DNA of 36,432 nt from assembly GCA_015058205.1 (NCBI GenBank), contig SVCS01000011.1:1-36432 (forward strand). The letters run 5' to 3'. Source of the stretch: Clostridiales bacterium (GTDB taxonomy: Bacteria > Bacillota > Clostridia > Peptostreptococcales > Anaerovoracaceae). Below are positions 7,437-36,120 of this stretch, piece after piece (position 1 is the first letter of the stretch; each line of letters starts with the position of its first letter). A model generated the notes under the pieces. That model was not told the DNA's origin and made no database searches. It saw only the letters and a program-made list of their open reading frames with translations. A program made the position numbers and the translations under genes.

Positions 7437-9036
7437 TTCCTGCCTCCTCATCTTCGTCATTTTCAAGAAGTTTCGCGACGTTGATCTTAGCAATGTGATC
7501 GCCGCTGTACTTGGTCATCATGACGCCAAGCTCTTCTTTCGTCGTCGTGCGCGCATCGACGATTCCGCTGACTTTGCCTTCGCACAGAACAAGAATCCTG
7601 TCGCAAAGTTCAACGAGAACGTCCAGGTCTTCTCCGACGTACACAACGCCGACGCCTTTCTGCTTCTCTTCAGAAAGGATGTTATAAATCGTATAAGAGG
7701 TATTGATGTCCAGGCCTCTGACTGCATAGGCCGTCATAAGAACTCTTGGTGCCAGGGAGATTTCTCTTCCGACCAGTACCTTCTGAACATTTCCTCCTGA
7801 AAGTTTTCTGACTGGTGTGTAGATGTTCGGCGTGGACACCTCAAGTCTGTCTTTGATTTCCTCAGCCAGTTCACGAGGTTCTTTTTCTCTTGTGAAAATG
7901 CCTCTGCCTTCGTTATAGGAACGCAGCAGCATATTTCCTACCATACCCATGTTTCCGACGAGGCCCATACCCAGTCTGTCTTCCGGAACAAAGGCAAGAG
8001 AAATACCCAGGTTCTTGATGTCGTTTACATCCTTGCCCAGGAGCTGTATCTCATCATTGTTGTCAATAGCCCGGTACATGATGCTGCTTCCCGGTTCCGC
8101 CTTCTGCAGTCCCGCGATGGCTTCCAGCAGTTCCTTCTGTCCGGCTCCTGCGATCCCGGCGATGCCGAGAATCTCACCCGCTCTGATGGTGAACGTGACA
8201 TCATCAAGGGCTTTGATTCCGTATTTATTTAAGCAAGTCAGATGCTCGATCCTGACGAGATCTTTCACATCTACAGGATCGGTTCTGTCTATGTTGAGTT
8301 CAACTTTTTTACCCACCATCATCTCAGTGAGGGAACTTTCTGTTGCATCCTTCGTTTCTATTTCACCGATGTACTCGCCTTTGCGCAGAACGGCAACTCG
8401 ATCGGACAGCTCCAGAACTTCCTGAAGCTTGTGCGTGATGATGACGATGGTTCTGCCGTGATCCTTCATGGCTCTGAGAACGAAGAACAGCTTCTCGGTT
8501 TCCTGCGGCGTGAGTACTGCCGTAGGCTCATCGAGAATGAGTATCTGCGCGCCTCTGTAAAGCACCTTGATGATCTCGACCGTCTGCTTCTCTGATACAG
8601 ACATTTCATATATCTTCTTGTTCAGATCGATTTCGAAACCGTATCTGTCTACCGTTTCCTGAATGTCTTTCAGTATGGCTTTCTTGTCCAGCCTCAACTT
8701 GCCCTGCATGCCGAGGATGATGTTCTCTGCCGCACTGAACACATCGACCAGCTTGAAGTGCTGATGAATCATTCCGATCTGATAATCAAAAGCATCCTGA
8801 GGGGATCTGATTACGGCTTCTTCACCGTTGACAAAAATCTGTCCACCATCAGGAGCATAAATACCTGCAAGCATGTTCATAAGGGTCGTCTTACCGCTTC
8901 CGTTTTCGCCCAGAAGTGAAAGGATCTCCCCTTTGTATATATCCATGCTTACATTGTTGTTCGCTTTGATCGCGCCGAATGTTTTGGTAACATTCCGCAG
9001 GGATATTGCTACTTCTCTGTTTTCAGGAGAGCTCAA
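7420..9036 (-). CDS. Double-domain ABC ATPase of nucleoside importer (NupO type)
   Basis: A 538-aa cytosolic ATPase with two fused nucleotide-binding domains, as in NupO and sugar ATPases such as RbsA; it energises the two permeases. Domain 1 has Walker A GENGSGKTT (43-51), a degenerate signature MSVSEKQ (145-151) and Walker B ILILDEP (165-171). Domain 2 has a degenerate Walker A (GIAGAGQKEL), a good LSGGNVQK signature and an altered Walker B region (LMTAYAVRGLDI where relatives have xQPTRGLDVG). So one composite site is probably competent and the other impaired, a common asymmetry in this family. The initiator is TTG at 9036: no ATG is available and AAAGGAGGAG sits at proper distance. Confidence 0.93.
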   Translation of the reverse strand: MSSPENREVAISLRNVTKTFGAIKANNNVSMDIYKGEILSLLGENGSGKTTLMNMLAGIYAPDGGQIFVNGEEAVIRSPQDAFDYQIGMIHQHFKLVDVFSAAENIILGMQGKLRLDKKAILKDIQETVDRYGFEIDLNKKIYEMSVSEKQTVEIIKVLYRGAQILILDEPTAVLTPQETEKLFFVLRAMKDHGRTIVIITHKLQEVLELSDRVAVLRKGEYIGEIETKDATESSLTEMMVGKKVELNIDRTDPVDVKDLVRIEHLTCLNKYGIKALDDVTFTIRAGEILGIAGIAGAGQKELLEAIAGLQKAEPGSSIMYRAIDNNDEIQLLGKDVNDIKNLGISLAFVPEDRLGMGLVGNMGMVGNMLLRSYNEGRGIFTREKEPRELAEEIKDRLEVSTPNIYTPVRKLSGGNVQKVLVGREISLAPRVLMTAYAVRGLDINTSYTIYNILSEEKQKGVGVVYVGEDLDVLVELCDRILVLCEGKVSGIVDARTTTKEELGVMMTKYSGDHIAKINVAKLLENDEDEEAGNEREA

Positions 9037-9068
9037 TGGCGCTCCTCCTTTCTGTTGTGTCTATATAA

Positions 9069-9105
9069 GAAAATCAGGAAAACCCCGGAGGTTCCGGGGC
9101 TTTCC
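9069..9105 (-). terminator. Intercistronic hairpin between binding protein and ATPase
   Basis: A 12-bp stem with one G-U (9077-9088 with 9094-9105, 5-nt loop), GC-rich core CCCCGG/CCGGGG, is followed on the minus strand by TTTTCCTGATTTTCTT. Probably a partial terminator or 3' stabiliser that makes the lipoprotein transcript more abundant than the ATPase and permeases. Confidence 0.65.
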
Positions 9106-9122
9106 CATAGTATATTGCTTGA

Positions 9123-10334
9123 TTAGAATTTCGTATCGAGGAGCTCGATGCCGTCGATCTGAAGATCGAAGTAAGGAGCGGAACGGAACTTGGATTCCAT
9201 GAATGCGCCGTCTTCGATAACATTCGTGTCGCCCTTGAAGTCAGGATCAGTATCTACGTCAGCGTTGTACTCTGTAACTTCCTTGCCATCAACTGTGAAT
9301 GTGGAAGTGTCGAATACCTGCAGTGATCCGTCGATCAGCTTAGCCTTTGCTTCTTCGATTGCTTCTGCAGTTCCTTCTGCAGCAACGTTTTCGTTGATCT
9401 CAGTGAGCTGTACGGAACCTGTCTCGAGGTCACCAGTCCAGTCAGCTTCGATTGCTTCGCCGTTCTGAGCAGCCTGGATTGCATATTCATAGTAAGGTAC
9501 CCAGTCAATTCTGGATGAAACGATGAATGTCTCAGGGCAGGACTCGATTGTGCTGCCGTTGTATGATACGTCAGGAACACCTGCGTTTTCACATGCTGTT
9601 GGAGCTCCCATGGAGTCAGCGTGCTGTGAAAGCAGTACGCAGCCGCCGTCGATCAGCTTAGTTGCACCCTCTTTTTCAAGAGTCTCGTCATACCATGAAC
9701 CTGTGAATGTTACGTCCATTGTAGCGGATTCGCAAACGGAACGTGCACCCAGGAAGAAGGAAGTGTAGCCTGAAACTACTTCTGCGTAAGTGAATGCACC
9801 TACATAACCGATCTTAGCCTGGTCAGCAGTAATGTCGCCGTTCTCGATCATCTCATTCAGCTTCATTCCTGCTGCGATACCAGCGAGGTAACGACCCTGA
9901 TAGATGGAAGCGAATGCATTGTGATAGTTGTCAAGGCCTTCCGTGTGAGCCTTTGTTCCTGTTGAGTGGCAGAACTGCACTTCAGGGAATTCCTTTGCCG
10001 CCTGAATCATGTAGTCTTCGTGACCGAATGAGTCAGCAAAGATGATGCCGCAACCGGAGTCAACCAGTTCAGCAGCTGCATCATAGCACTCCTGTCCTTC
10101 CGGAACGTTTGTCTTGATGATTGCTTCAACTCCCAGTTCTTCACATGCTGCGTTAGCTGCATCGATGAAGTTCTTGTCATAAGTTGAGTTTTCATCATGC
10201 AGGCAGATGAATCCAGCCTTGAATGCTGCATCGCCTGAGCCTTCTTCACTGTCTGATCCGCCGCATCCTGTGAAAGTCAGGGTGAATGCAAACACCATAG
10301 TGAGGGCAAGAACCAGTGATAATACTTTCTTCAT
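9123..10334 (-). CDS. BMP-family nucleoside-binding lipoprotein
   Basis: A 403-aa extracellular substrate-binding lipoprotein of the BMP/PnrA family, which binds purine (and some pyrimidine) nucleosides for ABC import. The start is ATG 10334, directly after GAGGAGGAGAAA; it gives MKKVLSLVLALTMVFAF, a clear signal peptide, ending in lipobox FTGC with the lipidated Cys at residue 24 and an acidic Gly/Ser linker behind it. Family features include the periplasmic-binding fold with DAANAACEELGVEAI, GCGIIFADSFGHED and KIGYVGAFTYAEV. It is the first gene after a purine riboswitch and terminator, and is separated from the ATPase gene by an 86-bp gap with a hairpin. Guanosine or inosine is the most likely ligand, inferred from the riboswitch. 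Confidence 0.93.
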   Translation of the reverse strand: MKKVLSLVLALTMVFAFTLTFTGCGGSDSEEGSGDAAFKAGFICLHDENSTYDKNFIDAANAACEELGVEAIIKTNVPEGQECYDAAAELVDSGCGIIFADSFGHEDYMIQAAKEFPEVQFCHSTGTKAHTEGLDNYHNAFASIYQGRYLAGIAAGMKLNEMIENGDITADQAKIGYVGAFTYAEVVSGYTSFFLGARSVCESATMDVTFTGSWYDETLEKEGATKLIDGGCVLLSQHADSMGAPTACENAGVPDVSYNGSTIESCPETFIVSSRIDWVPYYEYAIQAAQNGEAIEADWTGDLETGSVQLTEINENVAAEGTAEAIEEAKAKLIDGSLQVFDTSTFTVDGKEVTEYNADVDTDPDFKGDTNVIEDGAFMESKFRSAPYFDLQIDGIELLDTKF

Positions 10335-10368
10335 TTTCTCCTCCTCGTAAAATGAATAAACCTTTGAG

Positions 10369-10397
10369 AAACAACAAAGACAGGTACAAGACCTGTC
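10369..10397 (-). terminator. Riboswitch-controlled terminator
   Basis: A perfect 7-bp stem GACAGGT/ACCTGTC (10391-10397 with 10379-10385), 5-nt loop, is followed by TTTGTTGTTT on the minus strand. It lies 19 nt after the riboswitch aptamer and before the lipoprotein gene, the classic position for ligand-dependent premature termination. Confidence 0.75.
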
Positions 10398-10416
10398 CGC
10401 CAACTTCTACGTACTC

Positions 10417-10482
10417 CCAATAGTCGTAACTCAGGCGTTACGGTAGAGACGCACTACACCATTTCTTCGTGCTTATATTGGC
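10417..10482 (-). promoter_or_regulatory. Purine riboswitch aptamer, guanine class
   Basis: On the minus strand: P1 CCAATA/TATTGG (10476-10481 with 10417-10422); J1/2 ending AUAUAA; an irregular P2 (GCAC/GUGC core); L2 GAAAUGG (consensus GAUAUGG); J2/3 GUCUCUACC; a perfect 6-bp P3 with loop GCCUGA; J3/1 GACUA. The ligand-contacting positions known from xpt (U22, U47, U51, C74) are all kept, and C at 10423 specifies guanine/hypoxanthine, not adenine. L2 GG and L3 CC can still kiss. L2 has one substitution and L3 is one base short, so the loop-loop pairing is a variant. It controls the BMP importer operon. Confidence 0.85.
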
Positions 10483-10601
10483 AAATATTGAGTTGGTATG
10501 GATTGTGGAATGCTGTTTGCCCGTACACAACATATTGTGCTTTTTGCGCAATTTCCTATGATGTGATTACAGCTGTTCTGCAGTCCCTTTACCACAGTTT
10601 G

Positions 10602-23942: not shown

Positions 23943-26900
23943 TTATTTGAAATACTTCACAGCAGATTCGAACATCTTCATGTCGTATCTTCCTGGTACA
24001 TTCTTGTAGAGTCCGTATCCTGTTCTCTCCGCGTGCCCCATCTTACCAAAGATGCGTCCGTCAGGAGACGTCATTCCCTCCACAGCGTAAACCGATCCGT
24101 TCGGATTGAATCTGATGTCATCGGACGGCTTATCGTCAAAGTCTACGTACTGGGTCGCGATCTGACCGTTGGTTGCCAGCTCTCTCAGGAGCTTTTCGTC
24201 CGCCAGGATTCTTCCTTCTCCGTGTGATACAGGCACTGTGTAGACATCTCCGACCTGCGTCGCCGCGAGCCAAGGTGACTTGTTGGATGCCACTCTGATT
24301 CTGACGAGGCGCGACTGGTGACGTCCGATTTCATTGAGCGTCAGAGTCGGACAGTTCTCGTCCGTATCCATAATCTTGCCGTATGGCACGAGTCCCAGCT
24401 TGATGAGAGCCTGGAATCCATTACAGATTCCGCACATGAGTCCGCCGCGGTTGTCCAGCATATCGGTGACTGCTTCTCTGACGGCTGGGTTTCTGAAGAA
24501 TGCTGTGATGAACTTCCCTGATCCGTCCGGTTCGTCCCCGCCGGAGAATCCGCCAGGAATAAATACCATCTGTGACTCTGCCAGGGCTGCCGCGAAGTCT
24601 TCTACAGACTTGCTGATCGCCTCTGCTGTCATGTTCCGGATGACCATGATCTGCGGCTCTGCGCCGGCGGCTGCCATAGCTCTTGCCGAATCATACTCGC
24701 AGTTCGTGCCAGGGAACGCAGGAATGAGAACCTTCGGTTTTCCCGTCAGGATTGCCGGTGCCTTTGCAACAGCTTCCGCGCCGGCTGCCGGACCATTGTA
24801 ATCCAGATCAGGGATGTCCTGATGTTTCGTTTCTATGTTGCAAGGATAAATCGGCTCAAGAACGTCCTCGTAGATTTTCAGAAGCTCGTTCAGCGCTACT
24901 GATTCACCGCCGAGGGTGATGGCACCGTCATCCGTCGTCTCACCAAGCAGACTGCAGTTCACACCTTCCAGACCATTGCAGCCACAGACATCTGCCGCAA
25001 CTTCCAAAATGAAGGAACCGTAGTTATATCCGAAGAGCTCCTGCAGACCTGCCGCATCAGCAAAAGCTTCATCGAACCGGAATCCGACCATGTTTCCGAA
25101 GCACATCTTCATGACTGCTTCTGCAATGCCGCCGTGACCCGGAACATAAGCGGAATAGATTCTGCCGTCCTCGCCCAGATTCTTTACGACTTCAAATATC
25201 TTCTTGAGGGAAGCGATCTCCGGAAGCCCGTCACTGTTCTGTTCAGGCTTGAGGAAGATGACCTTGTGGCCTTTGCCCTCGAATTCATTTGTCATAATGT
25301 CATTGACGCCGGCTGTCGTTACCGCGAAGGAAACGAGCGTCGGAGGAACATCGATATCCTCGAAGGATCCGCTCATGGAGTCCTTGCCGCCAATTGCCGC
25401 TGCTTCCAGTCCCATCTGGGCTTCGAAAGCACCCAGGAGCGCTGCCAGAGGTTTGCCCCATCTTGCAGGGTCCTTGCCCAGCTTCTCAAAGAATTCCTGG
25501 AAGCTCAGGTAGATGGCTTCACGACCGCCGCCTGCTGCGATGAGTTTCGCGTAGGAATCAACGACCGCCAGGTACGCACCGTGGTATGGGCTCTTTTCAG
25601 AAATGAACGGGTCATATCCCCACGCCATGATCGAGCAGGTATCTGATACTGCATTCTCCACGGAAATCTTCTGCACCATGGACTGGGCAGGTGTCATCTG
25701 ATACTTGCCGCCGAACGGCATGATTACCGTGCCTGCTCCGATTGTGGAGTCGAACTTCTCAGAGAGACCCTTCTGTGAGCAGACGTTGATGTCTGCAGCC
25801 AATGCCTTCAGACAACCTGTAAAGGATGCTGCCTGTCCATCAGCCGCTGCTGGCAGTTCTTTCTCGAGCGCATCCTTTGATGCTGTTGCCGCTTTGATTT
25901 CTATATGTTTTTCCGCGCCATTTGAGTCGAGGAATTCTCTTGAAATGTCGACGATGACATTGCCCTTCCAATGCATCACAAGGCGAGGTTCTTCTGTGAC
26001 CGTCGCGACAACCGTTGCTTCCAGATTCTCCGCATCTGCAATCTCAAAGAATCTGTCTTTATCCGCTGCTGCGATGACGACAGCCATTCTCTCCTGTGAT
26101 TCACTGATGGCCAGTTCTGTTCCGTCGAGACCTTCGTATTTCTTCGGAACGACATCCAGGTTGATGTCCAGTCCGTCAGCCAGCTCGCCGATGGCAACAG
26201 AAACGCCGCCTGCACCGAAGTCGTTGCATCTCTTGATCATGCGGGATGCTTCGCCGTTTCGGAACAGTCTCTGGAGCTTTCTCTCTTCCGGGGCGTTCCC
26301 CTTCTGGACTTCTGCACCGCAGCTTTCCAGTGAGCTTACATCGTGGGACTTGGAGGAACCAGTCGCGCCGCCGCAGCCGTCCCTTCCTGTTCTTCCGCCA
26401 AGGAGAATGATGATGTCTCCAGGAGCCGGTCTTTCACGGACAACATTGGCAGCAGGTGCTGCACCGATGACTGCACCCAGTTCCATTCTCTTCGCAACGT
26501 ATCCGTCGTGATAGAGTTCCTGAACCAGCCCGGTTGAAACGCCGATCTGGTTTCCATAGGAGGAATATCCGTCCGCTGCTGAAGTGACGATTTTTCTCTG
26601 GGGCAGTTTTCCCTTCATCGTCTGATCAAGAGGCTTTCTCGGATCTGCTGCGCCGGTGATTCTCATGGCCGTGTATACGTAAGCACGTCCCGAGAGCGGG
26701 TCCCTGATGGCGCCGCCGATGCAGGTGGCCGCTCCGCCGAACGGTTCGATTTCCGTCGGGTGGTTGTGTGTCTCGTTTTTGAAGAGCAGGAGCCAGTCTT
26801 CCTGCTGACCGTCGATGGTGACTTTGACCTTGACGGTACATGCATTGATCTCTTCTGACTCATCGAGACCTTCCATCTTTCCGGCAGCTTTTAATGCCTT

Positions 26901-27731
26901 TGCGGCAATGGTACCCAGATCCATAAGGGTCACCGGCTTGGTTCTGCCGAGATCCTCGCGGGTCTTCATGTAGTCGCCGTAAGCTGCCTTCAGGGTCTCA
27001 TCTTCAAATTCGATCTTGTCGATGACTGTATTGAATGTTGTATGTCTGCAGTGATCGGACCAATAGGTGTCGATCATCTTGATTTCTGTAATCGTCGGAA
27101 CTCTTCCTTCGCTTCTGAAGTAGTCCTGGCAGACTTTGATGTCTCCCTCGTCCATGGCCAGTCCTCTGTCGGCGATGAACTGCTTCAGCGCTTCCGCATC
27201 CATGTCGTTGAACCCTTCGATGGATTCCACTGTCTGCGGCAATTCGTATTCTACTTTAAGGGTTTCCGGCATATCCAGGGACGCCTGTCTCATCTCAACA
27301 GGGTTGATGACATAGCTGATGATTGCCTGCAGTTCTTCCTTGGAAACTTTGCCCTCAATCAGATAAACCTTGGCACACGCCACGAGAGGACGCTCCTGCT
27401 GGGAAATGATCTGGATGCACTGGGCTGCAGAATCTGCTCTCTGGTCGTACTGACCCGGCAGGGCTTCTACCGCAAAGACCGCGTCGCCCATTTCAGCAAA
27501 TGTGGCTTCGTCGCCTTTCCATCTGTAGACATCATCTACCTGCGGTTCGGAGAACACGCTTCCGATGCATTCTTCAAAGAGTTCCTCAGAGATTCCTTCT
27601 ACATCGTATCTGTTGAAGATCCTGATTTTCTCTACTGAACTGATGCCGAGAAATGTTTTGATCTCAGAAAGCAGCGCCTTCGCTTCATTCGCAACCGCCT
27701 CTCTCTTCTCGACGAATACTCTGTAAACCAT
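23943..27731 (-). CDS. purL: Phosphoribosylformylglycinamidine synthase (single-chain)
   Basis: A 1262-aa fused FGAM synthase: FGAR plus glutamine plus ATP to FGAM. It contains an N-terminal PurS-like part, two AIR-synthase-like halves (THNHPTEIEPFGGAATCIGG; YDPFISEKSPYHGAYLAV; GGKDSMSGSFED), and a C-terminal class I glutaminase with nucleophile C1103 in CGICNGFQ, the PGGFSGGDE strand and catalytic His in SHGEGR. The glutaminase is intact, in contrast to the purF product in this operon. Single-chain PurL of this type is known from Clostridia and streptococci. The GGGAGGAAG ribosome binding site lies over the purD stop, one base upstream. Last gene of the operon. Confidence 0.97.
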   Translation of the reverse strand: MVYRVFVEKREAVANEAKALLSEIKTFLGISSVEKIRIFNRYDVEGISEELFEECIGSVFSEPQVDDVYRWKGDEATFAEMGDAVFAVEALPGQYDQRADSAAQCIQIISQQERPLVACAKVYLIEGKVSKEELQAIISYVINPVEMRQASLDMPETLKVEYELPQTVESIEGFNDMDAEALKQFIADRGLAMDEGDIKVCQDYFRSEGRVPTITEIKMIDTYWSDHCRHTTFNTVIDKIEFEDETLKAAYGDYMKTREDLGRTKPVTLMDLGTIAAKALKAAGKMEGLDESEEINACTVKVKVTIDGQQEDWLLLFKNETHNHPTEIEPFGGAATCIGGAIRDPLSGRAYVYTAMRITGAADPRKPLDQTMKGKLPQRKIVTSAADGYSSYGNQIGVSTGLVQELYHDGYVAKRMELGAVIGAAPAANVVRERPAPGDIIILLGGRTGRDGCGGATGSSKSHDVSSLESCGAEVQKGNAPEERKLQRLFRNGEASRMIKRCNDFGAGGVSVAIGELADGLDINLDVVPKKYEGLDGTELAISESQERMAVVIAAADKDRFFEIADAENLEATVVATVTEEPRLVMHWKGNVIVDISREFLDSNGAEKHIEIKAATASKDALEKELPAAADGQAASFTGCLKALAADINVCSQKGLSEKFDSTIGAGTVIMPFGGKYQMTPAQSMVQKISVENAVSDTCSIMAWGYDPFISEKSPYHGAYLAVVDSYAKLIAAGGGREAIYLSFQEFFEKLGKDPARWGKPLAALLGAFEAQMGLEAAAIGGKDSMSGSFEDIDVPPTLVSFAVTTAGVNDIMTNEFEGKGHKVIFLKPEQNSDGLPEIASLKKIFEVVKNLGEDGRIYSAYVPGHGGIAEAVMKMCFGNMVGFRFDEAFADAAGLQELFGYNYGSFILEVAADVCGCNGLEGVNCSLLGETTDDGAITLGGESVALNELLKIYEDVLEPIYPCNIETKHQDIPDLDYNGPAAGAEAVAKAPAILTGKPKVLIPAFPGTNCEYDSARAMAAAGAEPQIMVIRNMTAEAISKSVEDFAAALAESQMVFIPGGFSGGDEPDGSGKFITAFFRNPAVREAVTDMLDNRGGLMCGICNGFQALIKLGLVPYGKIMDTDENCPTLTLNEIGRHQSRLVRIRVASNKSPWLAATQVGDVYTVPVSHGEGRILADEKLLRELATNGQIATQYVDFDDKPSDDIRFNPNGSVYAVEGMTSPDGRIFGKMGHAERTGYGLYKNVPGRYDMKMFESAVKYFK

Positions 27732-27732
27732 T

Positions 27733-29004
27733 TTACTTCCTCCCTGCTTTCAGTGCTCTGGCTCCGATGTCTTTTCTGTAATATGCGTTTTCAAAGTGTA
27801 TCTTCGCAGCATTTTCATACGCTGTATCGATGGCTTCCTGCAGTGTTGGCGCTACGCTTGTAACACCCAGTACTCTGCCGCCCGAGGTGAGGAGTCTGCC
27901 ATCCTCGAGTTTCGCGCCTGCGACGAACACCTCTGTATTTCCTGTAAGCTCATCCATTGTGATCTCGCAGCCCTTCTTGTACTCCAGTGGATATCCGCCG
28001 GACGCCACGACAACACAGCAAGCGTTATCCTCTGAGAATTTAACCTCTGTATCGGCCAGTTTCTCGTCTGTCACCGCTTCCATCACCGTCAGCAGATCGC
28101 TCTCAAGCAAAGGCAATACAACCTGCGCTTCCGGATCCCCGAATCGGCAGTTGTACTCGATTACCTTCGGTCCGTCTTCTGTAATCATGAGCCCGAAGTA
28201 GAGGCAGCCTTTGAACGGTCTTCCTTCTGCATTCATGGCTTTGATGGTCGGCAGGAAGATTTCCTCCATGCAGCGCGCTGCAACGTCTTCTGTATAGTAA
28301 GGGTTCGGTGCAACCGTGCCCATGCCTCCTGTATTGAGTCCCTTGTCTCCGTCTAGGGCTCTCTTGTGATCCTGGGAGGAGATCATCGGGACGACGGTAT
28401 GCCCGTCTGTAAAGGAGAGGACGGATACTTCCGGACCGGTCAGAAACTCTTCTATGACGACCCTCGATCCGCTCTCACCAAATTTCTTCTCTTCCATCAT
28501 GCTGCGGACTGCTTCCTTGGCGTCTTCTCTTGTCTCGGCGATGATGACGCCTTTGCCCAGAGCGAGTCCATCCGCTTTGACGACTGCCGGTACAGGCGCA
28601 TCGTCCAGATAGGCGAGGGCTTTCTCCATGTCTTCAAAGACTTCATATGCAGCAGTCGGAATGCCGTACTTCTTCATGAGGTCTTTGGAAAAGACTTTGC
28701 TGGCTTCGATGACTGCCGCCTTCTTGTCGGGGCCGAAGCATCTGATGCCTTCTGCCTCCAGAACATCCACCGCTCCCATGGCGAGAGGATCATCCGGCGC
28801 AACCACTGCGTAATCGATTCCTTCGGACACAGCAAATTCTCTGATGCCTTCCAGGTCCTTGGCCCCGACGTTTACACACGTTGCATCCGCTGCAATACCA
28901 CCATTGCCCGGGAGTGCGTAGATGACTTCCACCTTCGGGCTTTTCGCCAATCCTTTGATGATTGCATGCTCGCGGCCACCGCCGCCTACTACCATTACTT
29001 TCAT
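27733..29004 (-). CDS. purD: Phosphoribosylamine-glycine ligase (GAR synthetase)
   Basis: A 423-aa ATP-grasp enzyme: phosphoribosylamine plus glycine plus ATP to GAR, the second step of purine synthesis. N-terminal VVGGGGREHAI (4-14) is diagnostic, followed by the ATP-grasp core (PAVVKADGLALGKGV; VVIEEFLTGPEVSVLSF) and metal/ATP ligands in YNCRFGDPEAQVVLP. Length is normal. RBS AAGGAG precedes ATG 29004. It follows the AICAR transformylase gene by 32 bp, a gap that holds a duplicated copy of that gene's end. Confidence 0.98.
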   Translation of the reverse strand: MKVMVVGGGGREHAIIKGLAKSPKVEVIYALPGNGGIAADATCVNVGAKDLEGIREFAVSEGIDYAVVAPDDPLAMGAVDVLEAEGIRCFGPDKKAAVIEASKVFSKDLMKKYGIPTAAYEVFEDMEKALAYLDDAPVPAVVKADGLALGKGVIIAETREDAKEAVRSMMEEKKFGESGSRVVIEEFLTGPEVSVLSFTDGHTVVPMISSQDHKRALDGDKGLNTGGMGTVAPNPYYTEDVAARCMEEIFLPTIKAMNAEGRPFKGCLYFGLMITEDGPKVIEYNCRFGDPEAQVVLPLLESDLLTVMEAVTDEKLADTEVKFSEDNACCVVVASGGYPLEYKKGCEITMDELTGNTEVFVAGAKLEDGRLLTSGGRVLGVTSVAPTLQEAIDTAYENAAKIHFENAYYRKDIGARALKAGRK

Positions 29005-29022: not shown

Positions 29023-29060
29023 GGAAGAGTCTCACCTTAGTGGTGGAAGAGTCTCACCTT
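29023..29060 (-). repeat. 16-bp direct repeat duplicating the end of the AICARFT gene
   Basis: GGAAGAGTCTCACCTT occurs at 29023-29038 and again at 29045-29060, period 22 bp. The right-hand copy encodes the KVRLF segment just before the stop of the formyltransferase; the left-hand copy starts at the stop codon and runs into the spacer. Looks like a slipped tandem duplication. Confidence 0.8.
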
Positions 29061-30221
29061 GTTGAAAATCATTACCATGTTGTATTTATCCGCTGCTGCG
29101 ATGACTTCATCATCTCTGACGGATCCGCCTGCTTCAACGACGTAGGATACGCCGCTTGCTTTCGCTCTCTCAATGCTGTCGCCGAATGGGAAGAACGCAT
29201 CGGAGGCCAGTACCCCGCCGCTCTGAGCGTCAAGATATGCTCTCTTCTCTTCTGCGGTCAGCCTCTCCGGCTGGCGGCTGAAATACTTCTGCCAGTTTCC
29301 TTCCGCGCAGACATCTTCTTCGTACTCATTGATATAACCATCGATGGCGTTGTCTCTGACTGCTCTCGGAAGTTTCTCCTTGAACGGCAGATTCAGAACC
29401 TTGTCGTGCATCCTCAGATACCAGGTATCCGCCTTGCTGCCTGCCAGTCTGGTACAGTGGATCCTGGACTGCTGTCCGGCGCCGATTCCGATGCACTGGC
29501 CATCCTTGGCGAAGCAGACGGAATTGGACTGGGTGTACTTGAGCGCGATCATCGCAATGATCAGATCGTCTTTCACACTCTCAGGCAGCTCTTTGTTCTC
29601 CGTTACAATGTTCTCTAAAAGATCTCTGCCGATTTTTATATCATTATGTGTCTGCTCGAAATTGATGCCGAAGACCTGACGGGTTTCCTGCCCCTCAGCA
29701 CTGTAGTCCGGATCGATTTCGATCACATTGTAGTTTCCGTTTTTCTTTTTACTGAGCATCTCAAGTGCTTTTTCTGTGAAGCCCGGGGCGATGACGCCGT
29801 CGGACACTTCGCGCTTGATGATGCGCGCTGTTGCTTCATCGCACACATCTGAAAGAGCGATGAAATCTCCGAAGGAACAGAGTCTGTCCGTTCCTCTGGC
29901 TCTGGCGTAAGCGCAGGCGATCGGTGAGTCGTCCAAGCCTTTGATATCTTCGACGAAGTATGCTTTTTTCATCTTCTCGCTCAGCGGTCTTCCGATGGCT
30001 GCCGATGTCGGGCTGACATGTTTGAATGATGTCGCCGCAGGCATGCCGGTTGCTTCTTTCAGTTCCTTAACCAGCTGCCATGCATTGAACGCATCGAGGA
30101 AATTGATGTATCCCGGCCTGCCGTTGCGTATTTTGATCGGCAGATCTGTGCCGTCAGCCATGTAGATTCTTGCTTCACTCTGATTCGGATTGCATCCGTA
30201 CTTAAGCTTCAGTTCGTTCAT
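29037..30221 (-). CDS. purH: AICAR formyltransferase (PurH C-terminal domain alone)
   Basis: A 394-aa protein with only the transformylase half of PurH: AICAR plus 10-formyl-THF to FAICAR. The catalytic pair Lys-His is in SFKHVSPTSAAIG (about residues 66-78), YTQSNSVCFAKDGQCIGIGAGQQSR is the conserved folate/AICAR site, and DAFFPFGDSIE is a further family block. No MGS-like IMP cyclohydrolase domain is attached; the ring-closing activity is in the next gene upstream, a PurO-type cyclohydrolase. The C-terminus (KVRLFHH) resembles the RHFRH end of full PurH. AAAGG before ATG 30221, with 8 bp to the upstream stop. This split arrangement occurs in other Clostridia. Confidence 0.95.
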   Translation of the reverse strand: MNELKLKYGCNPNQSEARIYMADGTDLPIKIRNGRPGYINFLDAFNAWQLVKELKEATGMPAATSFKHVSPTSAAIGRPLSEKMKKAYFVEDIKGLDDSPIACAYARARGTDRLCSFGDFIALSDVCDEATARIIKREVSDGVIAPGFTEKALEMLSKKKNGNYNVIEIDPDYSAEGQETRQVFGINFEQTHNDIKIGRDLLENIVTENKELPESVKDDLIIAMIALKYTQSNSVCFAKDGQCIGIGAGQQSRIHCTRLAGSKADTWYLRMHDKVLNLPFKEKLPRAVRDNAIDGYINEYEEDVCAEGNWQKYFSRQPERLTAEEKRAYLDAQSGGVLASDAFFPFGDSIERAKASGVSYVVEAGGSVRDDEVIAAADKYNMVMIFNKVRLFHH

Positions 30222-30229
30222 TTCGCCGC

Positions 30230-30943
30230 TTACCTTTCGTTTCTGTTTATGAGTCTTTCTTCGTATGTACCCTCGCCCAGATTGGTATATCTGACGTAGA
30301 GGGATATTCTGTTGTCTTCATCGAGGGCATTCCAGATTTCATCGGTGAACGCATCGATATCATCTGGTATCGCAACTCTCTCCGGTTCACCCTGGAACGT
30401 CGGAAGGGGAGATCCATCCTGCACATAGGTGTGGAGGAAGTGTCCCAATCCCGGAAGTGCTGAATAGGAGAAGGTGAAGCGGTTGCATGCTGTCCCTTCT
30501 GCATCGGCGCTCTTCAAAATGCTCATATTGTAATCACCGCTGGCCAGATCTGTAATACTGCTGATTCTCGGCGTCAGATTCGGCGCATCCGGCTCAAACT
30601 GTCTGCTCTCCAATGCCTTTGAAAAGGACAGTCCATTGTCCAGTCCTTCATAAATCGTATCTGTCTGGTCACCGTTTGTGACAATCAGACTGTCGCCGTA
30701 TTCTCTGATAGCAGCATAAATGATGAGGCTTGGGTCTTCGACTTTCGATGCATCAAATGGTTCTGTGAACACCTCTTCATCACGTATCGTAAATACACGA
30801 TTTCTGCTGTTCGCGCTTCTTCCCATGATGAAATAGGCTGTGGCAGCTTTGCCGGAAGGCGTCATGCCTGTGACGATTCCGCGTCCCACATAGGAATTGC
30901 CTTTCACTCTGTCTGTGAATGTGTCGATCTTATATACATCCAT
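30230..30943 (-). CDS. purO: IMP cyclohydrolase, PurO type
   Basis: A 237-aa protein matching the archaeal-type IMP cyclohydrolase family (PurO), which closes FAICAR to IMP. Visible family traits: YVGRGIVTG near the N-terminus, AYFIMGRSANSRNRVF, PSLIIYAAIRE and NGDQTDTIYEGL. It replaces the missing cyclohydrolase half of the neighbouring PurH. The start is ATG 30943 with AAAGGAAC upstream; a GTG at 30979 would add 12 residues unlike the family. The 52-bp gap to purN holds an imperfect repeat (AAAGGATGACGCAGA and AAAGGGTGACACAGA). Confidence in the family is good; activity is inferred from operon position. Confidence 0.88.
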   Translation of the reverse strand: MDVYKIDTFTDRVKGNSYVGRGIVTGMTPSGKAATAYFIMGRSANSRNRVFTIRDEEVFTEPFDASKVEDPSLIIYAAIREYGDSLIVTNGDQTDTIYEGLDNGLSFSKALESRQFEPDAPNLTPRISSITDLASGDYNMSILKSADAEGTACNRFTFSYSALPGLGHFLHTYVQDGSPLPTFQGEPERVAIPDDIDAFTDEIWNALDEDNRISLYVRYTNLGEGTYEERLINRNER

Positions 30944-30995
30944 CTGTTCAGTTCCTTTCTGTGTCACCCTTTGTTTCACGCCTCTGCGTCATCCT

Positions 30996-31604
30996 TTATT
31001 TCCCGCCGATGATCTCAGCGCATATCTTCTCTGCCGCTGCAGGCAGTATGATCCATTCCGCTTCTTCCATAACGCGTTTCTGAAGTACTTCCGGTGTATC
31101 GCCTTCTTTGACTTCGACGGCCTTCTGCATGATGATCTCGCCGCCGTCAGGAATCTCGTTCACATAGTGGACGGTTGCTCCTGTCACTTTAACGCCTTTG
31201 GCGAGGGCTGCCTCATGGACGAGGAGTCCGTAGAACCCTTTGCCGCAAAAAGATGGAATCAGGGATGGATGGATATTGATGATCTTATGGTCATAATGTC
31301 TGGTGAAGTCCTCGCTGAGGATGCTCATGAACCCGGCCATGATAATCAAATCGATGTCCCTGCTGTCGAGTTCCTCAATAAGCTTCTTCTCGAACCCTTC
31401 CTGTCCGCCGCAGCTTTTTCTCGTAATCGCCAGAGCTTCAATGCCTGCGTTTGCTGCTCTTTGCAGTGCAAAAGCATCCTTCTTATTGGATATGACGAGG
31501 CAGATGCTTCCGCTCTTCAGTTTGCCGCTTTTCTCTGCGTCAATAAGAGCCTGAAGGTTTGTTCCCCCGCCTGATACGAGAACCGCGATTCTTGCCTTTG
31601 CCAT
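30996..31604 (-). CDS. purN: Phosphoribosylglycinamide formyltransferase
   Basis: A 202-aa GAR transformylase: GAR plus 10-formyl-THF to FGAR. N-terminal VSGGGTNLQALID is the phosphoribosyl site; catalytic Asn and His are in IINIHPSLIPSF and Asp in IPDGGEII. KGFYGLLVHEAALAKGVKVTGATVH is the usual folate-binding block. Normal length. Strong RBS (AGGAGGCGCT) before ATG 31604. Uses folate, so its one-carbon supply could come through the fchA product of the same operon. Confidence 0.97.
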   Translation of the reverse strand: MAKARIAVLVSGGGTNLQALIDAEKSGKLKSGSICLVISNKKDAFALQRAANAGIEALAITRKSCGGQEGFEKKLIEELDSRDIDLIIMAGFMSILSEDFTRHYDHKIINIHPSLIPSFCGKGFYGLLVHEAALAKGVKVTGATVHYVNEIPDGGEIIMQKAVEVKEGDTPEVLQKRVMEEAEWIILPAAAEKICAEIIGGK

Positions 31605-31612
31605 AGCGCCTC

Positions 31613-32653
31613 CTAAATCAGTTCGATTTTGCTTTCGCCCTTTACGATTTCACCGATGATGTACGGATCTTCTCCGGCGTCCCTAAGAATCTGCAGCGCT
31701 TTCTCCGCATCCTCGTTTCGAACGACGATGCTCATGCCGACTCCCATGTTGAAGGTGTTGAACATATCACGTTCTGTGATGCCGCCTGTCTTCGCAATGA
31801 GGTCAAAAATCGGAAGCACTTTCACAGAAGCCTTGTCGATCTTCGCGCAAAGGCCATCCGGAATGCTTCTAGGAATATTCTCATAGAAACCACCGCCGGT
31901 GATATGCGAGATTCCTTTCACCTGCACTGCTTCTATTAGTTTCAGTACTGGCTTCACATAGATTCTGGTCGGGGTCAGGAGTGTTTCCCCAATGGACTTC
32001 CCGCCCAGCTCAGGAACCGGTGACTTGATATCGGCGTTCTCCACGTCAAATACTTTTCTGACAAGAGAGAACCCGTTTGAATGCACTCCGCTTGAAGGCA
32101 GCGCAATTACAACGTCTCCCTCTTCCATGGTTTCGTTATCTATGATCTTGTCCTTGTCGACAACGCCAGTGACATAGCCGGCAAGGTCATACTCGTCTTC
32201 CGGATAGAATCCCGGCATCTCTGCTGTTTCTCCACCGATTAGCGCTGCGCCCGACTGTATGCATCCGTCGCAGACGCCCTTGACGATCGCCTCCATTCTC
32301 TCCGGCACATTCTTGCCGCAGGCGATATAGTCAAGGAAGAAAAGCGGTTTCGCGCCGCCGCAGATGATATCGTTGACACACATGGCAACGCAGTCGATGC
32401 CTACTGTATCATGCTTGTCCATGAGAAAGGCAAGCCTGAGTTTGGTGCCGACGCCATCCGTGCCGCTGACCAGAATTGGTTTCTTGATATTTGTAAGGTC
32501 GAGTTCAAACATGCCGCCGAATCCGCCGATGTCAGAGCATACGCCCTCTGTTCTGGTGGATGCGATATGTTTCTTCATCAGTTCCACAGCCCTGTATCCT
32601 GCTGTGATGTCTACTCCGGCTGCAGCATAAGCATCTGATCTTGAATTCTTCAT
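31613..32653 (-). CDS. purM: AIR synthetase (phosphoribosylaminoimidazole synthase)
   Basis: A 346-aa enzyme: FGAM plus ATP to AIR. Family blocks: [87 protein letters not shown] and [13 protein letters not shown]. Full length. The ATG at 32653 lies 3 bp after the purF stop, with GGAAAGGAA at the end of purF as ribosome binding site. Confidence 0.98.
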
Positions 32654-32656
32654 GTG

Positions 32657-34081
32657 CTATTCCTTTCCGTTCCAGCAGTATGTGCAAACACTGTCTTCAT
32701 CCAGTCCAATGGCTTCCAGAATGCCGTCAATGTTCTGATAGTCCAAAGAATCAAATCCGAGTTTTTCGCTGATGGCCTTACGGAGAGCTTTGCCCCTCTC
32801 CGTTCTGCCGTCGCTATACTCATCGATATACTTTTCACCTTCTTCTCCTTCGAGTTCAAGGATCGTCTTTCTTGCGATCAGATCACGTTCCGGAGTCTGT
32901 CTGGTGAAATTGAGGTATTTGCAGGAATACATAATCGGAGGACAGGCTGATCTCATGTGGACCTCTTTCGCTCCATGCTCATAGAGAAAGTCTACTGTTT
33001 CCCTGAGCTGCGTGCCTCTGACGATGCTGTCATCCACCAACAGCAGTTTCATATCTTTGATCAGCGGAGTAACAGGGACTTGTTTCATCTTCGCCACTCT
33101 GCTGCGTTCTTCATGTGACATCGGCATAAAGCTGCGCGGCCACGTCGGCGTATACTTGACGAACACACGGCCGTAGTCCTGACGGCATTCATTGGAGTAT
33201 CCAATGGCATGCGCAATACCTGAATCCGGAACGCCGCAGACATGATCTACCTGAGGAACGCCCCCGTGTTCCGCTTCATTTCTCGCCATAATATGCCCGT
33301 TGAGATTTCTCATTCTCTCAACATTGATTCCCTCATAGTCTGAATTCGGATATCCGAAATAGGTCCAGAGGAACGCACAGATGCACGTTTTCCCCGTCGC
33401 CGGCGAGAGAACTTTAATGTCCTTCGCTGTAACTTCCACAATCTCCCCGGCGCCCAGCTCATACTCTGTTGTGTAACCCAGCTTCTCATACGCGAAGGAC
33501 TCAAAGGAAATGCTATGGCCGTTCTCATCCTTGCCGATGAGCATCGGTGTTCTGCCAAATTTATCTCTGGCTGCGATGATCGTTCCGTCTTCCTTTAGAA
33601 TCATGATAGATGCGGAACCTTCAATCGCATCCTGCGCGAATTTGATTCCACTGACGAAATCACTTTTCTGGTCGATCATGGACGCCAGAATCTCCGCAGA
33701 GTTGATGCGGCCGCCGCTCATCTCTTCAAAGTGACCTCCGCTGAAGGCCAGATACTGTTTCACAAGCGTATCCTGATTGTTGATTCTTCCCACAAAAACG
33801 AGTGCATAGGTTCCCAGATTGGAACGAATGATCAAAGGCTGCGGGTCTGTATCACTAATCGTCCCGATTCCGGCAATGCCGTGCATCGAACCGATCGCAT
33901 TTTCAAATTTTGTTCTGAATGGTGAATTCTCTATGTTGTGGATTTCTCTTTTGAATCCCGTCTCCGGATCGTAGAGCGCCATTCCTCCCCTGCGTGTACC
34001 AAGGTGAGAATGATAATCCGTTCCATAAAAAACATCCATCGTGACGTCTCTCGTTGAGACTGCTCCGAAATATCCTCCCAT
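32657..34081 (-). CDS. purF: PurF homologue without the glutaminase nucleophile
   Basis: A 474-aa amidophosphoribosyltransferase homologue (PRPP to 5-phosphoribosylamine). The PRT domain is intact: PRPP loop LLLVDDSIVRGT (346-357). The Fe-S cysteines known from Bacillus PurF are kept (C233 or C235, C387, C466, C469). The N-terminal Ntn-hydrolase domain is present, but the mature enzyme would start GGYFGAVS and not CGIxG. The Arg of the RYST motif is gone (GIAGIGTISDTDPQP, 68-82), NGN is VGRIN (97-101), and SDTE is INSAE (126-130). So glutamine hydrolysis looks lost; ammonia-dependent synthesis is inferred. The start is firm: ATG 34081 overlaps the fchA stop (TGATG) and follows AGGAG. A longer upstream frame only shadows fchA. 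Confidence 0.92.
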   Translation of the reverse strand: MGGYFGAVSTRDVTMDVFYGTDYHSHLGTRRGGMALYDPETGFKREIHNIENSPFRTKFENAIGSMHGIAGIGTISDTDPQPLIIRSNLGTYALVFVGRINNQDTLVKQYLAFSGGHFEEMSGGRINSAEILASMIDQKSDFVSGIKFAQDAIEGSASIMILKEDGTIIAARDKFGRTPMLIGKDENGHSISFESFAYEKLGYTTEYELGAGEIVEVTAKDIKVLSPATGKTCICAFLWTYFGYPNSDYEGINVERMRNLNGHIMARNEAEHGGVPQVDHVCGVPDSGIAHAIGYSNECRQDYGRVFVKYTPTWPRSFMPMSHEERSRVAKMKQVPVTPLIKDMKLLLVDDSIVRGTQLRETVDFLYEHGAKEVHMRSACPPIMYSCKYLNFTRQTPERDLIARKTILELEGEEGEKYIDEYSDGRTERGKALRKAISEKLGFDSLDYQNIDGILEAIGLDEDSVCTYCWNGKE

Positions 34082-34740
34082 CAGATTGTTTCTCCTGTCT
34101 CTATTACTGTGTTGATTAATGTGTTTGTCGTATATCCGAATACTGCATCCGCCAAAGCGCCGTAGTAAATAATTCTCTGCGTGCACTCGCCATTGATTTT
34201 CATGGCCAGATCTCTGTCCTTCATCATATTTGTGTTGATGTAGATGTTGAAGCTGGCTGCCTGCATGGCCGCCTTGCACAGCACTGCGCTGGATGCGGAA
34301 TCTGCGATGACAACTTTGTTGCCTTTGATTGCAAATTCCTGGGCAAGCTCAATCGCCCTGCCGCATTTGATGATGATTTCCATCGGTACCTGACAGGCTG
34401 TATGAAGCGCCTCTTGCTTCATTTCATCAATTCTTGCCTTTTCTTCCGGATCCTTGGATTTCATTTTGTAGAGTTTTGCCAGCGGTTCGAAGTTGTCAAT
34501 ATCCTTCTGAACAAGCTTGACGAGATCTTCCTGAATCTTCGTGATCTCCGCGATGTTCTTTTCCATCTCTGCAGCAACGGCGATGTACTTTTTCTTACCG
34601 ACGGTAAGACGAGCCACCATAGCGCTGAGAGAGGCCCCAAGAGCACCTACCAGAGCGGCGACACTGCCGCCGCCCGGGATAGGCTCTTTGCTTGCTACTG
34701 ATTCTATAAACTCTTTGCATGTTTTATCGGTGTAAGCCAT
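34081..34740 (-). CDS. fchA: Methenyl-THF cyclohydrolase / formimino-THF cyclodeaminase family (FchA)
   Basis: A 219-aa protein of the FTCD_C/FchA family. Members either interconvert 5,10-methenyl-THF and 10-formyl-THF or deaminate 5-formimino-THF to methenyl-THF with release of ammonia. The hallmark PIPGGGSVAALVGALGASL lies near residues 21-39, and the all-helical remainder (SKDPEEKARIDEMKQEAL; ADSASSAVLCKAAMQAASFN) fits. ATG 34740 is preferred to 34743 because AGGAAG is then 5 nt away. It is translationally coupled to purF by TGATG. In a purine operon it can supply 10-formyl-THF for PurN and AICARFT. If it is a deaminase it could also supply NH3 next to a glutaminase-less PurF (inference). 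Confidence 0.88.
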   Translation of the reverse strand: MAYTDKTCKEFIESVASKEPIPGGGSVAALVGALGASLSAMVARLTVGKKKYIAVAAEMEKNIAEITKIQEDLVKLVQKDIDNFEPLAKLYKMKSKDPEEKARIDEMKQEALHTACQVPMEIIIKCGRAIELAQEFAIKGNKVVIADSASSAVLCKAAMQAASFNIYINTNMMKDRDLAMKINGECTQRIIYYGALADAVFGYTTNTLINTVIETGETI

Positions 34741-34790
34741 CATATCTTCCTTTCAGTCAGGGTCTGCTGCCCTTGTGTTTCAGTATCTTC

Positions 34791-35477
34791 TTATTCTGCA
34801 AAGAAGAGTTCTGAAAGCTTGAGTGGTTCAATGTATTCGCCGTCCTTGTAAACTCTCATGTTGCCGGATGCGATCTCATCGATCAGCATAACCTTGCCAT
34901 CCTTATCGTATCCGAATTCAAACTTGATGTCATAGAGCACGAGGCCCTTCTCAAGCATGTCGTCTGCGACGATCTGCGTGATTTCCTGTGTCATCTTCTT
35001 CAGATCTTCATACTGTTCGTCTGTCATGATTCCCAGAACGATCAGGCCATCCTTGGTAACGAGCGGATCTTCCTTCTCATCATTCTTGAATGTTGTTTCA
35101 ACATATGCAGGGAGATCTGCGCCTTCTTCGATGTATTCACCGTATCTTCTGTAGAAGGAACCAACTGCCTTATGTCTGCAGATGACTTCCAGTCCGTTGC
35201 CGAATACTGTTGCCGGCTTGACTTCCATTGTGGTGTTCTCCAGATCGGAGCTGATGAAGTGCGTTCTGATGCCGGCTGCATTGATTTTCTCAAAGTAGTA
35301 AGTTGTCATTCTCAGATTGACATCACCAACGCCTTCGATGGTAAGTCCTACTTCGTTCATGCCCGGATCGAACACGCCGTCCTTGCCTGTTACGTCATCC
35401 TTGAACTTGAGCAGATAATTGCCGTTGTCCAGTTCGAATACGTTCTTTGTCTTTCCTGTGTAAACTAATTTTTCCAT
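34791..35477 (-). CDS. purC: SAICAR synthetase
   Basis: A 228-aa enzyme: CAIR plus aspartate plus ATP to [17 protein letters not shown] near the N-terminus, LKFKDDVTG, the [12 protein letters not shown] block, and [16 protein letters not shown], with [12 protein letters not shown] near the C-terminus (metal/ATP site), are typical. Normal bacterial length. Excellent RBS (AGGAGGG) before ATG 35477. Separated from purE by 122 bp holding a structured RNA element. Confidence 0.97.
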
Positions 35478-35599: not shown

Positions 35600-36088
35600 T
35601 TATTCCGCCCCATTAAGCCGCGCGTCCTTTGCCAGGACCGCTTCAGCTGCTGCTTCTCTTTCTTTTTTTAACTTTTCAGCCAGTTCAGGATCGCTTACCG
35701 CGATGATCTGTGCTGCTAAAATGGCCGCGTTTGCCGCGCCGTCGATTGCTACTGTTGCTACCGGAATTCCTGACGGCATCTGAACTGTCGACAGAAGCGC
35801 GTCCAGTCCATCCAGGGTTGATGATTTTACCGGAACTCCGATGACCGGCAGGAGAGTGTTGGCTGCCAAAGCCCCCGCCAGATGGGCGGCTTTTCCTGCC
35901 AGTGCGATGATGGCCCCGAAGCCATTTTCCTCTGCATTGACTGCAAAATTCTTCGCCTGCTCCGGCGTTCTGTGCGCAGAGTATATGTGGACTTCGTAAG
36001 GGATTCCATATCCTTCAAGTCTCTCTATTGCCTTCTGTGCGATAGGCATATCGCTGTCTGAACCCATTACGATTCCGACCCTTCTCAT
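35600..36088 (-). CDS. purE: N5-CAIR mutase (PurE class I)
   Basis: A 162-aa PurE: rearranges N5-carboxyaminoimidazole ribonucleotide to CAIR. GIVMGSDSDMP at the N-terminus, SAHRTPEQ, ALAGKAAHLAGALAANT and GVPVKSSTLDGLDALLSTVQMPSGIPVATVAI are class I signatures. Class I enzymes normally need PurK; no purK is in the window. The start is ATG 36088, with AGGTGAGG upstream; a GTG at 36097 would overlap that site. First gene of the purine operon, with a leader of about 26 nt and no riboswitch or PurR-type box recognised. Confidence 0.95.
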   Translation of the reverse strand: MRRVGIVMGSDSDMPIAQKAIERLEGYGIPYEVHIYSAHRTPEQAKNFAVNAEENGFGAIIALAGKAAHLAGALAANTLLPVIGVPVKSSTLDGLDALLSTVQMPSGIPVATVAIDGAANAAILAAQIIAVSDPELAEKLKKEREAAAEAVLAKDARLNGAE

Positions 36089-36120
36089 GAGCCTCACCTG
36101 CCTTTCGTAAATACATCACG

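Follow-up and report, generated by a model that had tools for sequence, protein, structure and literature searches.

The window analysed here, a stretch of 36,432 nucleotides from the genome of a clostridial gut bacterium, encodes a PurF homologue that has lost its glutaminase active site. To judge from its sequence and that of its relatives, it is probably a natural PRPP aminase that forms 5-phosphoribosylamine by combining PRPP with free ammonia, carries an inert former glutaminase domain, and occurs in parallel with the loss of the glutaminase of carbamoyl-phosphate synthetase (CPS). We named the family of such Cys-less, glutaminase-dead PurF homologues PurF*. In the window's genome and in several further clostridial lineages, no other PurF was found.

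Table 1. Purine operon of the window and key residues of its PurF* (positions in the window).
Feature	Position	Strand	Basis
purE	35600..36097	-	named by eye; gene order common to relatives
purC	34791..35477	-	named by eye; gene order common to relatives
FTCD_C/FchA-like gene, overlaps the purF* start	34081..34743	-	profile matches; present in 4/80 relatives
PurF*	32657..34081	-	ORF, profile score, alignment, fold match
Gly2 codon, where canonical PurF has the catalytic Cys1	34076..34078	-	C in 25/25 canonical PurF; PurF* 128 G and 3 S of 131
Leu27, replaces Arg of QHRGQ	34001..34003	-	R in 25/25 canonical; L in 131/131 PurF*
Ser76-Asp77, replaces Arg-Tyr of RYxT; glutamine loop after it shortened	33851..33856	-	alignment; Arg-Tyr in 25/25 canonical
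Phe96-Val97-Gly98-Arg99, replaces HNGN, Gly alone kept	33785..33796	-	alignment; His-Asn in 25/25 canonical
Cys235, Fe-S ligand by homology	33377..33379	-	alignment
KYTPTWPRSFMP, residues 309-320, altered (presumed) flexible loop of the PRPP site	33122..33157	-	alignment vs canonical
PRPP-binding motif KLLLVDDSIVRGT, residues 345-357, DDSIVRGT intact	33011..33049	-	alignment
Cys387, Fe-S ligand by homology	32921..32923	-	alignment
Cys466 and Cys469, Fe-S ligands by homology	32675..32686	-	alignment
purM	31613..32653	-	above TIGR00878 cut-off
purN	30996..31604	-	named by eye; gene order common to relatives
PurO-type IMP cyclohydrolase	30230..30979	-	profile matches
Stand-alone AICAR formyltransferase	29037..30221	-	NF005492
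purD	27733..29004	-	above TIGR00877 cut-off
purL, large form	23943..27731	-	named by eye; retains the glutaminase Cys string GICNGFQ, and SHGEG

The window protein has 474 residues and begins with MGGYFGAVST in the translation of its open reading frame. It scored 157.6 bits with the NCBIfam purF profile (TIGR01134), below the curated cut-off of 350, and matched the PDB chain of B. subtilis PurF (1ao0) at 4.7e-38. Its Gly3 aligns with Gly2 of the mature B. subtilis enzyme, and therefore Gly2 occupies the place of the catalytic Cys1. The original prediction, made from the sequence alone, held that this Cys was absent (Met being followed by Gly-Gly-Tyr), that the Arg of RYST, the Asn of NGN and the Asp of SDTE were replaced, and that the PRPP loop and four Fe-S cysteines were intact. 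Alignment with 25 canonical PurFs bore out each of these points. After RYxT, the canonical proteins have T, G and S columns, which are deleted in all the 131 PurF* that we aligned. The Asp of SDTE, found in 24 of the 25 canonical proteins, corresponds to Gly123 in the alignment, beside an insertion, or to Ser128 if one counts back from the Glu, and neither is an Asp. The PRPP motif (D350-T357), K309, R316, K333 and the cysteines C235, C387, C466 and C469 are kept at 90% or more in PurF* and canonical PurF alike. We take these four cysteines to be the Fe-S ligands, as in B. subtilis-type PurF, and residues 309-320 to be what is called the "flexible loop" of PurF.

The start of the gene is fixed, as had been claimed. 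The ATG of purF* is overlapped by the stop codon of the upstream gene (TGATG), and a GGAG lies 10 nt upstream. Among 80 relatives, an in-frame stop is found at most 15 codons upstream of the same start in 61 and at most 40 codons upstream in 74; locus L082, where the contig ended first, was left out of this count. Upstream strings resembling CGxx were found in only two of the 80 (L041 and L068), and neither looks like the N-terminus of a PurF. The Gly-Gly start common to the 80 relatives, the upstream stops and the TGATG overlap led us to reject a wrongly placed start that conceals the Cys.

Cys-less homologues had been expected in other Clostridia, and a scan of genome contigs confirmed at least 586 relatives. 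We kept the best 80 of them, and all of these, like the window protein, have Gly-Gly at positions 2-3. The set of 131 PurF* used for the alignment comprises the window protein, these best 80 relatives, 54 loci of the class sample described below and four named records, after removal of duplicate strings. Open reading frames of loci L109-L138 and L155-L178 were trimmed before alignment to the first xGG(F/Y/I/L/V/M)(F/L)(G/A) string, and distinctness was counted after trimming; a Cys start would escape this pattern and stay visible. None of the 131 distinct PurF* has a Cys at the nucleophile position. The three with a Ser there (L169, L171 and L173, with an MSG start) all come from genomes that have a canonical PurF. 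Members of the family from Bacteroides finegoldii, Parabacteroides distasonis, Phocaeicola massiliensis and Peptoclostridium acidaminophilum (46-51% identity) are labelled in the named records as plain amidophosphoribosyltransferase or hypothetical protein.

The former glutaminase domain carries new motifs that are near-invariant in the family (MGG-FG, DYHSHLGT and GIGxISD). In a tree of 91 rows, built with a quick method and subject to a long-branch warning, PurF* is split from the 25 canonical PurFs by a long, fully supported branch. The predicted structure of the window protein (mean pLDDT of 80.9) matches B. subtilis PurF 1ao0 with a TM of 0.80 (E of 2.4e-31), which places it in the PurF fold. 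The pLDDT falls below 50 in four segments (residues 310-318, 353-357, 386-395 and 468-474), and these overlap with the flexible loop, the PRPP motif and Fe-S cysteines. A pseudogene or a sequencing error was rejected by the conservation of the PurF* sequences, which indicates that PurF* is a conserved family rather than a decaying gene.

The operon of the window is ordered purE, purC, FTCD_C/FchA-like gene, purF*, purM, purN, PurO-type cyclohydrolase, AICAR formyltransferase, purD and purL. On the PurF* loci of the 80 relatives, some of which are short, we found purM in 75, purE in 69, and PurO, AICAR formyltransferase and purD in 59 each; FTCD_C was present in four. The PurO-type cyclohydrolase and the stand-alone AICAR formyltransferase (29037-30979, minus strand) stand in for a bifunctional PurH, and both are present on 57 of the 80 related loci. 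The product of the FTCD_C/FchA-like gene would be either a cyclohydrolase or a cyclodeaminase, and it scored 158.8 bits, below the FchA cut-off of 275. A cyclodeaminase can release NH3. We rejected the feeding of NH3 by this overlapping gene as a general mechanism, since the gene is there in only four of the 80 relatives, and it may be a simple folate cyclohydrolase.

The gene pepT follows PurF* in P. acidaminophilum, and pepT-gcvT follows it in three Bacteroidota records (L104-L107), without pur gene neighbours. This synteny of PurF* and pepT spans phyla for no obvious reason. A universal link to pepT was rejected, as pepT was found in none of the 26 loci searched (L153-L178). Canonical purF and purF* are adjacent, in either order, in G135, G208 and G211 (L153, L154 and L155), and two of these three pairs are inside a pur operon. 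Elsewhere in the window, a purine riboswitch aptamer (RF00167, 41.1 bits; 10401-10500, minus strand) immediately precedes a Bmp/PnrA-type ABC transporter operon (5338-10403, minus strand), which is probably involved in the uptake of purine nucleosides.

The protein had been described as the only PurF of the operon, and it is also the only one found in the genome (94% complete, 123 contigs). A search with the purF profile revealed no canonical PurF there and no second PurF match containing the phosphoribosyltransferase (PRT) domain. The other match was a GlmS-like protein of 638 residues (MCGIVGYV), in its glutaminase part only. The original prediction had named a canonical PurF elsewhere in the genome as the result that would speak against it, and the search of this 94%-complete assembly gave none. 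Of the 37 genomes in the window's genus, 33 gave a PurF*-type match with no score above the cut-off, two gave both kinds of match (G009 and G030) and two gave neither (G025 and G034); in this count PurF* was recognised only by a sub-cut-off purF score over the PRT part.

We extended the search to a class sample of 293 clostridial genomes, that of the window among them and the others at least 95% complete; most are draft assemblies. The purF profile scored over its cut-off in 231 genomes of the sample, and a PurF* profile found PurF* in 83. The two families are separated by a clear gap in scores with the PurF* profile, at least 498 bits for PurF* (contig-edge fragments aside) and at most 240 bits for canonical PurF. 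After a re-check of 24 genomes and that of the window, 24 of the 83 genomes had no canonical PurF (sole-PurF* genomes) and 59 had both. G183 is not among the former: it has a canonical purF, whose single open frame was matched in two separate parts. We left G270 out of the PurF* count (an N-terminal fragment of 238 bits at a contig edge) and counted G282, whose PurF* consists of two contig-edge fragments. The sole-PurF* genomes retain other genes of the pathway: PurM is over the cut-off in 23 of the 24 (weak in G341) and PurD in 23 (not in G241). In those where PurF* is encoded elsewhere, purE (purC in G218) is contiguous to purM, and purF is absent between them in all of the 12 regions examined. 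In G247, assembled as a single contig, PurF* is placed between purC and purM.

Most sole-PurF* genomes have also lost the CPS glutaminase. The window's genome encodes a CarB (1448.9 bits) and has no match for CarA at 1e-10. The lone carB is part of a cluster (L234 366-12581, contig C22) with genes for an arginine deiminase, an ornithine carbamoyltransferase, an amino-acid-kinase family protein, an argininosuccinate synthase (ArgG) and two ArgH-type lyases. The amino-acid-kinase family gene is a carbamate kinase by eye, and the cluster looks like an ammonia-fed arginine route. CarB is present in 21 of the 24 sole-PurF* genomes (not in G138, G247 and G341). Among these 21, CarA is absent in 10, including that of the window, broken in eight and intact in three. 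The broken CarAs (G073, G102, G109, G151, G169, G218, G274 and G332) have a Gly or Ala instead of the Cys, the His of HPE is replaced too, and all eight adjoin carB. The intact ones are in G213, G241 and G282. Each of these belongs to a genus with sampled members that have a canonical PurF, and an assembly gap is therefore possible there (genus g116, discussed below, has such a member too). CarA or its active site is lost in 18 of the 21 sole-PurF* genomes with CarB, with cases in 10 family labels.

The catalytic Cys is present in all of the 39 control CarAs (20 from canonical-only and 19 from two-PurF genomes), identified by a script pattern in 38 and by eye in the other one (G285, AICLGHQ). 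These controls are best-scoring rows only and do not include the low-scoring CarAs of G085, G134, G159, G315, G270 and G329. Four further CarAs from two-PurF genomes (G209, G239, G331 and G086) have the Cys. CarA is absent in 16 of the 151 CarB-bearing genomes without PurF* and in none of the 59 genomes with both PurFs. The difference between 18 of 21 and 18 of 210 gave a p of 3e-14 in a Fisher test, which ignores phylogeny and counts unseen CarAs as intact. The loss of CarA is not limited to sole-PurF* genomes: G093 and G236, from the window's family (f1), have a canonical PurF and CarB, and CarA is absent. We also observed a broken CarA active site in G122 (L186) and G178 (L192), which have no PurF match at 1e-36. 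The coupling of PurF* and CarA may fail outside the class in Bacteroides ihuae, by difference the sole one of 14 control genomes without a canonical PurF over the cut-off, which has a CarA over the cut-off, known from its profile score alone. A test for more CarB than CarA copies was associated with PurF* (49/80 vs 35/151), and we set it aside, as it counts second CarBs of unspecified role. In the window's genome the Cys is retained in both GlmS and PurL, and therefore the loss of glutaminases is selective and glutamine is still used elsewhere.

The two changes are found side by side in genus g116. A carB without carA is directly upstream of purF* in G177 and G209. The latter genome, in one contig, has purF-carA-carB at 0.86 Mb and a lone carB-purF* at 2.56 Mb. 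Its congeners G177, G254 and G293 have one CarB, no CarA over the cut-off and no canonical PurF; CarB is adjacent to purF* in G177, 1.4 kb off in G293 and on a separate contig in G254.

The reading of PurF* as an ammonia-dependent PRPP amidotransferase, put forward in the original prediction, is supported by these sequence comparisons, from which we infer the use of ammonia itself. The chemistry would take place in the PRT domain, which holds the PRPP motif and the Fe-S cluster. The former glutaminase domain would be retained as a structural or regulatory body, a role suggested by its near-invariant new motifs. PurF* keeps what the ammonia half-reaction needs and has lost what the hydrolysis of glutamine needs, and therefore ammonia is the simplest reading of the donor, all the more because the same change is seen in CPS. 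Both enzymes would draw on environmental or intracellular NH3, and an ammonia-rich habitat may be the selective cause. Varel and Bryant reportedly described an ammonia preference of Bacteroides in 1974. One study states that E. coli PurF retains the ammonia-dependent amination of PRPP when its Cys1 is replaced (PMC3261824). What counts against an aminase is that 59 of the 83 PurF* genomes also have a canonical PurF, and PurF* may have another role there, or that of a partner. Also adverse are the adjacent pairs of canonical purF and purF*, the loci with pepT in place of pur genes, the three sole-PurF* genomes with an intact CarA, the CarA losses in genomes without PurF*, the case of B. ihuae, the draft state of most assemblies, and the flexible loop, which departs from the canonical one and is, like parts of the PRPP and Fe-S sites, poorly modelled. 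It is somewhat likely that several lineages of Clostridia repeatedly adopted ammonia in place of glutamine as the nitrogen donor at the first steps of purine and pyrimidine synthesis, with PurF replaced by PurF* and with CarA, or its active site, lost, while GlmS and PurL were kept on glutamine in the window's genome. The carB-purF* pair of g116 would then be the ammonia version of purF-carA-carB.

Other explanations of these data were considered. PurF* might use nitrogen derived from glutamine by a separate glutaminase subunit docked on the inert domain. The strong conservation of this domain is what one would expect of a docking face, and the adjacent pairs of canonical PurF and PurF* in G135, G208 and G211 would suit such a partnership. 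However, the sole-PurF* genomes have no canonical partner, we found no orphan glutaminase gene in the operon of the window (the operon only, partly by eye), and the concurrent disappearance of CarA, or of a working CarA active site, points to ammonia, which makes docking unlikely. We regard as quite improbable that PurF* is regulatory and does not act as an aminase in the cell, in which case PRA would arise from ribose-5-phosphate and ammonia without an enzyme, or from a TrpD-like side reaction. Both routes to PRA are described for Salmonella purF mutants (PMC3485032). Yet across a deep divergence the PRPP and Fe-S residues hardly vary, which is unexpected for a non-catalytic relic, and purM is on the same locus in 75 of the 80 relatives.

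This linkage to purM, together with the PurM and PurD found in 23 of the 24 sole-PurF* genomes each, also speaks against the transfer to PRPP of an amine other than NH3, or a side pathway, in which PurF* would not serve purines where both enzymes are present. The canonical PurF in 59 of the 83 carriers, the pepT and carB neighbours of some lineages and the altered flexible loop would fit such a role, to which we give very little credence. Least probable of all is that canonical purF is merely missing from incomplete MAG assemblies. The window's genome is 94% complete and in 123 contigs, two of the 37 genomes of its genus have a canonical PurF, and so do congeners of G213, G241, G282, G177, G254 and G293; but in 33 of the 37 the profile gave a PurF*-type match and nothing above the cut-off, all 12 regions examined run unbroken from purE to purM and include no purF, and G247 is one contig.

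PurF and CPS are textbook examples of glutamine amidotransferases that pass ammonia through a tunnel. If PurF* is an ammonia-dependent PRPP aminase, glutamine would be dispensable as the donor at these two steps when ammonia is abundant, and in bacteria of the gut and rumen the synthesis of nucleotides would depend directly on the level of ammonia. PurF* resembles canonical PurF (TIGR01134, EC 2.4.2.14; B. subtilis 1ao0/1gph and E. coli 1ecf) in its fold, PRPP motif, four cysteines and place in the pur operon. It differs by the loss of Cys1, of the glutamine-site Arg, Asn and Asp and of the glutamine loop, by an altered flexible loop, and by a score below the family cut-off.

The closest description in print is that of PurF' in Crenarchaeota, a Cys-less PurF homologue linked to purine genes, which was proposed in 2011 to be an ammonia-dependent PRPP aminotransferase, a proposal its authors left untested (PMC3261824). 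According to the same study, PurF' accompanies a Cys-bearing PurF in the Crenarchaeota studied, and many have Ala or Val at the Cys position (PMC3261824). By these descriptions, PurF* is like PurF' in its lack of the catalytic Cys and its linkage to purine genes. In contrast, PurF* has a Gly (a Ser in three cases), and in 24 of the 293 genomes, including that of the window (94% complete), no PurF accompanies it. A search of open-licence papers revealed neither a Cys-less PurF described from bacteria nor any link between such a protein and the loss of CarA. As far as this literature shows, the bacterial family, its use as sole PurF and the accompanying loss of the CPS glutaminase are new, whereas the ammonia proposal was already in print for the archaeal PurF'. 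The mammalian CPS I is ammonia-dependent, has lost its glutaminase triad and keeps a dead glutaminase domain. PurF* would follow the same principle of an ammonia-using enzyme that keeps a dead glutaminase domain, although the enzyme and the class of glutaminase differ, and the broken CarAs would be, by analogy, the bacterial counterpart of the dead glutaminase of CPS I.
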